Source: Bacillus sp. (in: firmicutes) (lineage in GTDB: Bacteria; Bacillota; Bacilli; Bacillales; Cytobacillaceae). Taken from it: a stretch of DNA of 64,000 nt. The notes beneath the pieces were generated by a model. The model saw nothing but the letters and a program-made list of their open reading frames with translations, ran no database searches and had not been told where the DNA came from. This document shows, one piece after another, positions 4,887 through 61,690 of the stretch (within the stretch, counting starts at the first letter, position 1; every line of letters begins with the position of its first letter). The stretch spans positions 1-64,000 of the forward strand of contig JAPSKD010000003.1 of NCBI GenBank assembly GCA_031177865.1. Reading direction: 5' to 3'. Both the position numbers and the translations under genes were made by a program.

Positions 4887-5785
4887 ATGGTTAAAAAGGA
4901 ACGGTCTATACCTGCAGAATTGGTTAACTTGAGAATTTTGGATTAGAACAGATTTATCGGAAAAAGCAAAGAAGCAACTCTTTAACAAGGAGAAGGGTTA
5001 TGTAGGGGAATTGAAATTTGACAGTTTAATACGTGACCTAGATACTTTGGTTATTAATGATTTGTTGCTCGAAGTAGGTGATACAGTTTTCCAAATTGAT
5101 ACTTTGATTATCTTCTATGGACGTATCTACCTTATTGATGTCAAAAATTTCGAAGGAGAATATTGTTATGAAGATGGTCTGTTTAAAACAATAACTGGAA
5201 GTGAAAAGAAAGATCCTATGCTTCAGTTAAATTGGTGTCACTTGGCACTCCGACAATTACTCCAAAAATATGGATATAATTTACCCATTGAAGCTTGCCT
5301 AGTATTCATAAACCCCGATTTTACTTTATTTCAGCCATCTTTAAAGCCGCAGATTATCTTACCTACTCAAGTTAATTCTTTTATTAAAAAACTGCATAAA
5401 TTGCCTGCTAAGCTAAGTGATAAGCACCATAAACTTGCAGACCTGTTAGTTTCTTTACATAAAACCGAAAATCCTTATGTTCGATTACCAAAATATCATT
5501 ATGACACAATGGAAAAAGGGATAACCTGTGGGGCCTGCCACTCGTTTGGATATTTCTGTCTCTACAACGAAAATAACTTGTAAGAATTGTGGTTGTGAGG
5601 AGCGGATGGAAGAAGCGGTGTTACGGAATGTGGAGGAATTGAAGATACTGTTTCCAGATATAAAGATAACAACTAATCTGGTTTTTGAATGATGTAAGGT
5701 TATTGATTCTACTAAAATGATTTGGAGGATTCTCAAGAAAAACTTTAAAGCAATGGGGAATACTAAAAAATGCTATTATGAGTAG
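4887..5785 (+). pseudogene. Degraded NERD (nuclease-related domain) protein gene
   Basis: MVKKERSIPAELVNLRILD | frameshift | RTDLSEKAKKQLFNKEKGYVGELKFDSLIRDL... | frameshift near 5550-5585 | CKNCGCEERMEEAVLRNVEELKILFPDIKITTNLVFE | TGA 5690-5692 | CKVIDSTKMIWRILKKNFKAMGNTKKCYYE, stop 5783-5785. Confidence 0.8.
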
Positions 5786-5818
5786 TTTTTATTAGACTTG
5801 GTCTGTAACAATCTCTTT

Positions 5819-6020
5819 ATTGTTACCGAATTTTGCATTTCGCATCTTTTTCGGGCATTATCCTGACCTGATTGTTACCATAATCTCGCTCCCTCTGCTT
5901 TTTGGGTAACAATCCTGACTTGATGGTTACCCTGTTCTCTCTCCCTCTGCTTTTTGGGTAATAATCCTAGCCTAATGTTACCGTAATCTCTCTTCCCCTG
6001 CTTTTTGGGTAAAAATCCCG
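5819..6020. repeat. Tandem hairpin array, 52-bp period, about 4 units (ATTGTTACC...GGGTAACAAT)
   Basis: GTTACC at 5822, 5874, 5926, 5977; each followed by CTCCCTCTGCTTTTTGGGTAA-like segment. Confidence 0.8.
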
Positions 6021-37336: not shown

Positions 37337-37342
37337 ACTAAT

Positions 37343-37535
37343 ACAAGCTGCGTTGCTCGTAGTGATAATAAAGTTTTAACCTTTAAGCTGTAAAAGGGAG
37401 TTTTACTATCGGAGCTATAATGACAAGCCTCTGTCTATAGGATATGGAGGACAAGCAGGAAGGCTTCTGCGAACACCCACTTTGAGGAGTGGTGGTTTAA
37501 AACTTTCTTATATGAGGTACGGCAAATGCGGCTAT
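37343..37535 (+). ncRNA. Structured RNA candidate, 6S RNA-like
   Basis: Terminal stem GCUGCGUUGCUCGUA / UACGGCAAAUGCGGC; inner AAGCCU...AGGCUU stem; CCACUuugaggAGUGG hairpin; preceded by consensus promoter, followed by terminator; no ORF. Confidence 0.6.
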
Positions 37536-37555
37536 ATAATCTAATACATTTAACT

Positions 37556-59000: not shown

Positions 59001-59603
59001 ATGGCTCGTTATACTGGCTCAAGCTGGAAAATTTCTCGTCGTCTTGGAATCTCTCTAAGCGGCACAGGTAAAGAATTAGAAAAGCGTCCTTACGCTCCTG
59101 GACAACATGGTCCAAACCAACGTAAGAAGCTTTCTGAATACGGATTGCAATTGCAAGAAAAGCAAAAACTTCGTCACATGTACGGAGTAACTGAGCGCCA
59201 ATTCCGTAACCTATTTGATAAAGCTGGCAAATTGGGTGGGGTTCACGGTGAAAACTTCATGATCCTACTTGAATCACGTCTTGACAACGTAGTTTACCGT
59301 TTAGGTTTAGCTCGTACTCGTCGTGCAGCACGTCAATTAGTTAACCATGGCCACATCTTAGTTGATGGTTCTCGCGTAGATATTCCATCATACCGTTTAG
59401 CTCCTGGTCAAACAATCAGCCTACGTGAAAAATCACGTAATCTTGATGTTGTTAAAGAAGCAGTTGAAGTTACTAACTTCGTTCCTGACTACTTAACGTT
59501 TGATGCAGACAAGCTTGAAGGTACATTCACTCGCTTACCAGAGCGTTCTGAATTACCGGCTGAAATTAACGAAACTCTTATTGTCGAGTTCTACTCTCGT
59601 TAA
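59001..59603 (+). CDS. rpsD: 30S ribosomal protein S4
   Basis: [37 protein letters not shown]. Confidence 0.99.
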
Positions 59604-59607
59604 TTTT

Positions 59608-59643
59608 TCAAAAACCGTGCCAGCAGTGGCACGGTTTTTTTAT
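59608..59643 (+). terminator. Terminator of rpsD
   Basis: AAAACCGTGCCagcaGTGGCACGGTTTTTTT. Confidence 0.85.
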
Positions 59644-59828
59644 TTCTTCTTTATCCACTTAATCGCCCTTGAATATAGTATTCCTAACAATGCGTATAGA
59701 ACAACTACCACCACTGCAGTCCAAATTCGTTCTTGTATCACACCATCAGCATACAAAACTGGGCCTAGCCCAAAGAAAGTAACAAGTAAAATGAGAATGA
59801 TAAAAAAAGCATGAACTAGAAATTTCAT
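59640..59828 (-). CDS. Small two-TM membrane protein
   Basis: 62 aa, two hydrophobic segments, basic C-terminus. Confidence 0.55.
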   Translation of the reverse strand: MKFLVHAFFIILILLVTFFGLGPVLYADGVIQERIWTAVVVVVLYALLGILYSRAIKWIKKK

Positions 59829-59931
59829 AAAAAATCACCACCAATTGGTCTTCTTATCCTACAAGACGTTGATTCTCCGTACGTTGTTACAAACTTGTAA
59901 TATTGGACTAGCTGTTTTTGATTAAGGGTGG

Positions 59932-60078
59932 ATTGTGACCGAAATTTCACTTCTTTCACCTTTTCGGTCACAATTATCATGTTATTGTGACCGTATTCCT
60001 GCTCCTTCCTCTTTTTCGGGCACAATTACCACTTTATTGTGACCGTATTCCTGCTCCCTCCAGTTTTTTGGGCACAAT
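59932..60078. repeat. Tandem hairpin array, 52-bp period, 3 units (ATTGTGACC...GGKCACAAT)
   Basis: GTGACC at 59935, 59987, 60039; each closed by GGTCACAAT or GGGCACAAT. Confidence 0.8.
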
Positions 60079-60121
60079 CAATAGATTCAGCCACAAGGAT
60101 ACCAATTTTTATAAAAGAAAA

Positions 60122-60160
60122 TCCCGGCCTCATGTACCGAATGAGGCCGGGTTTTCTAAT
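60122..60160 (-). terminator. Terminator of tyrS
   Basis: CCCGGCCTCATtcggtacATGAGGCCGGG. Confidence 0.8.
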
Positions 60161-60162
60161 AA

Positions 60163-61690
<1,528 letters not shown>

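Follow-up and report, generated by a model that had tools for sequence, protein, structure and literature searches.

Tandem 52-bp palindromes between rpsD and tyrS of a Neobacillus genome, and related extragenic arrays in the Bacillales

The DNA analyzed here, hereafter called the window, is a stretch of 64,000 nucleotides from a 5.43-Mb draft genome (G000) of the genus Neobacillus. Judged by ribosomal protein S4, its nearest named relative is N. niacini (two strains, at 99% and 98%). Between its rpsD and tyrS genes lies an array of three palindromic units, and a second array of four units is found near 5.8 kb. The features of interest are the following:

5818..6017, + strand: second array of the window, four units of the same family with spacings of 52, 52 and 51, beside coaE; the pyrimidine strand is +
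59001..59603, + strand: rpsD, 30S ribosomal protein S4, flanking gene (TIGR01017, E 2.1e-85)
59640..59828, - strand: short hydrophobic ORF of 62 aa between rpsD and the array, with no NCBIfam match
59931..59975, + strand: unit 1 (45 bp), GATTGTGACC-25-GGTCACAATT, a nearly perfect palindrome with a pyrimidine-rich + strand
59976..59982: linker 1, 7 nt, of sequence ATCATGT
59983..60027, + strand: unit 2 (45 bp), TATTGTGACC-25-GGGCACAATT, its core having one A.G mismatch
60028..60034: linker 2, 7 nt, ACCACTT, near the pyrimidine-strand consensus ACCTCT
60035..60079, + strand: unit 3 (45 bp), TATTGTGACC-25-GGGCACAATC, the complete right arm of which closes the array
60115..60157: terminator-like hairpin (A-run, CCCGGCCTCAT..ATGAGGCCGGG, T-run) between the 3' end of tyrS and the array
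60163..61467, - strand: tyrS, tyrosine--tRNA ligase, flanking gene (TIGR00234, E 1.2e-139)

The first-pass annotation of this DNA had reported three GTGACC units at 59935, 59987 and 60039, spaced by exactly 52 bp, which we confirmed both from the sequence and with Tandem Repeats Finder, this program giving period 52 at the 59931-60079 array as well as at 5860-6018. The closers of GTGACC are GGTCACAAT, GGGCACAAT and GGGCACAAT in units 1, 2 and 3, respectively, and our two-unit model of the family, R2, matches positions 59931-60027 with E 1.4e-16. The array is placed beyond the terminator-like hairpin of tyrS, and the DNA of the 62-aa ORF can be recognised between rpsD and tyrS in relatives devoid of the array. 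Elsewhere in the window, a T-box leader upstream of tyrS (61471-61685, - strand) and a 6S RNA gene (37342-37538, + strand) score above the Rfam gathering level. The other array neighbours coaE, the gene for dephospho-CoA kinase; the gene that precedes this array (5011-5583, + strand) has a weak NCBIfam match to antiphage_MADS6, at 18.7 bits vs a cut-off of 460.

The two arrays of the window are indeed related, as had been proposed, the one at 5.8 kb being composed of four units of the same family. The stem change described between them stands in large part, with a G:C pair in all three units at 59931-60079 and a T:A pair in three of the four units at 5.8 kb, but the first of the latter units has T.C instead. 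In the rpsD-tyrS array, units 2 and 3 end in GGGCAC and thus have an A.G mismatch in the adjoining pair. The loop motif thought to be kept (CTCCCTCC..TTTTTTGGG) fits unit 3 and, roughly, unit 2, but not unit 1. The T:A/G:C pair, which had been cited as evidence of covariation, fails in larger samples: it is unpaired in 20 of 34 units of G000, where the whole stem is 78.1% paired vs 77.1% with shuffled columns, and among 129 arrays drawn from the order, 81 have G:C at this place, 7 have T:A and 37 have T.C, on the basis of which we rejected the pair as evidence of covariation. The adjoining pair is A:T in 64 and A.G in 54 of these 129 arrays, and the T.C and A.G mismatches are polar, falling nearly always on the same sides.

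A structure model built from 34 units (R1) detects at least about 45 distinct units at ~18 places in G000, together with many matches in other members of the genus. A de novo scan for tandem units of 34-55 bp with inverted 10-bp arms, in which neither sequence nor period was assumed, gave 98 hits in ~100 loci of the genus (many of them fetched through an R1 match), and the period was 52 in all. Of ~45 arrays detected by a palindrome-blind scan for tandem repeats in 1.2 Mb, taken evenly from three relatives, 13 had period 52, and the next commonest period, 42, had 5. This excess of period 52 in both scans indicates that the array is not due to chance; the many arm types recovered at one period by the de novo scan also rule out a single species-specific family. 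Within the order, R2 matches 90 of 289 genomes and 38 of 113 genera (best 14 candidates per genome), whereas in a draw of 299 phylum-wide genomes, most of which appear to lie outside the order, it matches only two, namely G000 and another member of the order. Genomes negative for R1 are negative by the model only, and one of them, G020, holds arrays. Named genera with arrays near rpsD include Cytobacillus, Robertmurraya and Halalkalibacter, and the four genomes that have one main contig contain at least tens of arrays each. The array at 59931-60079 is a member of a family of extragenic tandem palindromes that spans the Bacillales. The literature searched, with most subscription journals outside its scope, gave no account of such arrays.

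The plan of the units consists of a 6-nt arm, the core GACM, a 25-nt centre, the core KGTC and a complementary 6-nt arm, amounting to 45 bp, which a 7-nt linker extends to 52 bp per repeat. The spacing between neighbours is exactly 52 bp, or about five helical turns, in 580 of 609 cases, and the centre measures 25 nt in 653 of 680 units. These lengths are kept although the centre sequences differ (mean identity is 38.6% between arrays with different arms and 49.1% between those with the same arms), a situation pointing to constraint on length. The centres carry a T-tract near the middle and are 73% one-sided in purine/pyrimidine content; two independent polar features, the core variants left T7 and right G38, agree in sitting on fixed sides.

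The core could be viewed as phased half-sites that a putative protein binds in duplex DNA, forming an operator or a bending or wrapping array. C9 and G37 are invariant, and A8 is conserved at 92%, in the arrays as selected; moreover, the phasing of 52 bp is exact and, being equal to five turns, would let the repeated units present one face to the protein. The presence in the genus of other intergenic tandem arrays at 41-42 and 63 bp, near whole helical turns, and the absence of an RNA strand signal (see below) are also consistent with such binding. We nevertheless consider it unlikely as the explanation of the arrays, because a reader of the core only would leave the complementary variable flanks and the likeness of arms within arrays unexplained, and at least six arm types occur in one genome sample (~400 kb of G034). 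Furthermore, since the register itself was set in part by the core, some of the invariance of C9 and G37 is built in.

We then considered the complementarity of the arms themselves. In the 129 arrays, which were chosen by period 52 and core without using the arms as a criterion, the two arms are complementary at 5.03 of their 6 outer positions vs 2.36 +/- 0.11 after shuffling, and as many as 68 distinct left arms are present. Given that fold-aware models fetched most arrays, only the small sampled sets are free of selection by fold; in ten arrays from sampled genome pieces the complementarity is 4.9 vs 2.43 +/- 0.46, the highest of 2000 shuffles reaching 3.9. An alignment of 24 arrays, partly chosen for palindromicity, has 90.6% paired cells vs 64.2%. 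The earlier proposal that the fold is preserved rather than the primary sequence is thus sustained by the comparison between arrays, the arms of which differ and remain complementary, but not by unit-by-unit compensation: within arrays, 195 arm changes are one-sided and 1 is compensated, where chance would yield 3.3. The arm types are homogenised within arrays, as had been surmised, with a deviation of 0.04 for the arms, 0.105 for the centre and 0.163 for the linker. The dominance of one-sided changes and the minimal deviation of the arms together show that arms are held alike across an array, not repaired unit by unit.

The genomic setting of the arrays provides additional information. Of 101 arrays with called neighbours (the gene calls being simple ORF calls), 65 occupy tandem gaps, 34 convergent gaps and 2 divergent gaps, as against 35% of the background intergenic bases in gaps of the divergent kind; the arrays avoid promoter gaps. 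A terminator-like hairpin lies between the gene end and the array on 66 of 97 sides, compared with 6 in the shuffled control. With respect to replication, 72 of 79 arrays from four genomes, among the matches listed, have the purine strand as the leading strand, each genome having a single main contig of 4.7-6.2 Mb, whose start was taken as the origin and whose midpoint as the terminus. GC skew confirms the two replication halves in G034. In G152, skew is positive around 4.65 Mb, suggesting an origin short of the contig end, in which case the leading-strand count would be 74 of 79. When local GC skew is used, the purine strand is on the leading strand in 84 vs 15 arrays, and the orientation of arrays beside lagging-strand genes follows replication in 10 of 10 cases. 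Other non-coding DNA has 52% purine on the leading strand vs the 73% skew of array centres. Five arrays on contig C1 of G034 (at ~262, 645, 794, 858 and 1155 kb) are exceptions to the replication rule, which the remaining 23 arrays of this genome obey; inversions or weak strand skew may be the cause. The orientation bias could arise through instability and loss of one orientation, rather than through function.

These data bear directly on the possibility that the arrays are RNA hairpins, that is transcribed 3' regions or small RNAs with selected stems. Besides the complementary arms and the changes on both sides, such a reading could draw on the + strand of the 59931-60079 array, which folds better than shuffled sequences (z -5.3), and on the purine strand being the sense strand in 48 of 65 tandem gaps. 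However, orientation tracks replication and not transcription, as seen in all ten arrays beside lagging-strand genes; compensation within arrays is absent, the arrays are usually beyond terminators and G-U pairs are not preferred (62 G-U vs 50 A-C, p 0.30; 45 vs 31 on the sense strand, p 0.14). Rfam gave no match to the arrays in the 64-kb window and none in eight arrays at relaxed threshold, the four hits obtained there being far below gathering scores. Covariation between arrays is shared with structured RNA families, but the excess of G-U is missing. We thus judge the RNA reading quite improbable, and the arrays appear to form a previously undescribed family of repeats at the level of DNA rather than RNA.

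Promoter avoidance, the terminator side, the lack of G-U bias and the replication orientation speak for a hairpin element at the DNA level that is linked to replication, more than for RNA or a conventional protein-binding site. With moderate confidence, we propose that the array is one of the Bacillales-wide extragenic tandem palindromes that act or persist at the DNA level and are tied to the direction of replication. The arms would pair either by extrusion of a cruciform or within the single-stranded lagging-strand template, the strand bearing the purine-rich sequence; the inverted symmetry of the units suggests that either structure may form. Slippage and unequal exchange between mutually pairing units might then lengthen, shorten and homogenise the array; each array would thereby hold one arm 'code', and a new code would come only via a new or converted array. 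Such an array may serve the cell, for example by helping to handle forks or to absorb supercoils beyond genes, roles of the kind suggested for REP/BIME elements, or it may be a tolerated parasite. The missing compensation at the unit level, which selection on each hairpin would predict, counts against this DNA-level explanation, as does the failure to find a partner acting in trans. A bolder version, which we find rather improbable, would see in the arrays a previously undescribed replication-linked system of DNA hairpins, in which the complementary arms give each array an 'address', uniform within it and different between arrays, the shape and core being read by a putative host factor at the fork.

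The comparison of orthologous gaps indicates that arrays are inherited vertically while their copy number changes and, occasionally, whole arrays come to differ in arm type; decayed remnants are also seen. In the nirD gap and the L026 gap, arms of the ATAGT type are kept across several species. The coaE gap of the 5.8-kb array contains ATTGTTACC units in G000 and G062, with a remnant in G008, and units of the TCATGAG/TCATAAA type in G016, G018 and G063, so that whole arrays at this gap differ in arm type between sister species. The rpsD-tyrS gap has ATTGTG units in G000 and G062 and ATTGGCGACA units in G011, while it has no array in G025 and G019, the flanks of which are too diverged to show a target-site duplication such as a MITE or IS-derived element would leave. 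Arrays with other arms located 3' of rpsD in G034 and G006 probably sit in the same gap, since they precede a tyrS match. A compound array in contig C93 of G000 (L011:1440-1720 plus its right flank) presents units of the ATTCTTACC type followed directly by units of the TCATGAGGACC type, uniting side by side both arm types of the coaE gap.

The dispersion of shared arm types and the gaps with and without an array among relatives might also be expected if the arrays were REP-like palindromes mobilised by an HUH (Y1) transposase that works on the single-stranded lagging-strand template. Replication orientation and the polar, mismatched palindrome would agree with this mobility, and a bias in replication orientation is described for IS200/IS605 elements as well. 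The tag GTAG or CGTC, however, is absent from the foot of the palindrome in the position profile of the 129 arrays, which shows the core GACM/KGTC. Y1_Tnp genes are present alike in model-positive and model-negative genomes, and 20 loci containing them have 2 arrays in 172 kb, with ~2.3 expected. RAYT was accordingly rejected as the partner; the partner protein or nuclease that the first-pass annotation had envisaged was not found, Y1_Tnp/RAYT as the candidate examined here being neither group-specific nor flanked by arrays. The 59931-60079 array has no match in phages or plasmids, and an origin from these was set aside; one viral contig (L404) matches an arm pattern, a lone occurrence in unrelated GC-rich sequence that we read as chance. 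Movement by Y1 transposases therefore seems very doubtful to us. We attribute still less probability to neutral quasipalindrome dynamics, whereby template switching perfects the arms and slippage multiplies the units without any function. Concerted differences in both arms between arrays, without compensation at the unit level, and the copy-number variation and decayed remnants in orthologous gaps would follow from such dynamics, but the constant lengths of 25 and 7 nt across diverged arrays, the constant core and the replication orientation would not.

Among known elements, REP/BIME sequences are the closest in kind. These elements, tagged with GTAG or CGTC (PMC3733652), are short extragenic imperfect palindromes having variable stems plus a short conserved motif, present in many copies and clustered in some species; like elements under the REP/RAYT definition, the 52-bp arrays are extragenic, imperfectly palindromic and multicopy. 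The 52-bp arrays differ by the lack of the GTAG/CGTC tag and of flanking RAYT, by the strict tandem period and by the array-specific arms; according to a survey of REP elements, CGTC REPs are also without a flanking RAYT (PMC3733652). A text search of this survey did not find the word Firmicutes, and passages of it assign the REP families to other phyla (PMC3733652). The bcr1-bcr18 elements of Bacillus cereus (PMC6542083) are likewise interspersed repeats of Bacillaceae, mostly chromosomal, but they are 100-400 bp long with a TTTAT motif (PMC6542083), in contrast to the 45-bp units in 52-bp tandem with array-specific complementary arms found here. The arrays might be read as CRISPR-like, with partly palindromic repeats of ~27 bp split by 25-nt segments; these segments, however, are related copies (~10% deviation within arrays) and not unique spacers, and the arrays number at least tens per genome. 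The strand bias set by replication direction recalls KOPS, Chi and the single-strand origins of plasmids. KOPS and Chi are strand-biased by the direction of replication and plasmid single-strand origins are read by their fold, but all of these are fixed sequences or single structures, whereas the 52-bp arms differ from array to array.

If our DNA-level interpretation is right, dozens of intergenic sites per Bacillales genome would be under one strict plan (52 bp, array-specific complementary arms, replication orientation), for which neither Rfam nor the literature searched has a description. The arrays offer tests of how DNA repeats that depend on fold and vary in sequence arise, stay alike and become oriented, and they warn that changed pairs in bacterial repeats can be evidence of DNA-level events rather than of RNA. 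Since their copy number differs between species, they may also serve as typing markers.

The genus contains other tandem repeats as well, with periods of ~41-42 and 61-63 bp and a sub-unit of ~20-21 bp (e.g., GAAATTCGCTGATTGACCGGA), close to whole helical turns; such 42/61-63-bp repeats lie at L151:5168, L163:3565, L167:11276 and L169:8763, 11896 and 15398. A 57-bp tandem array at L186:1484, built on AAACGTTTGATTAG, apparently represents a different palindromic family.
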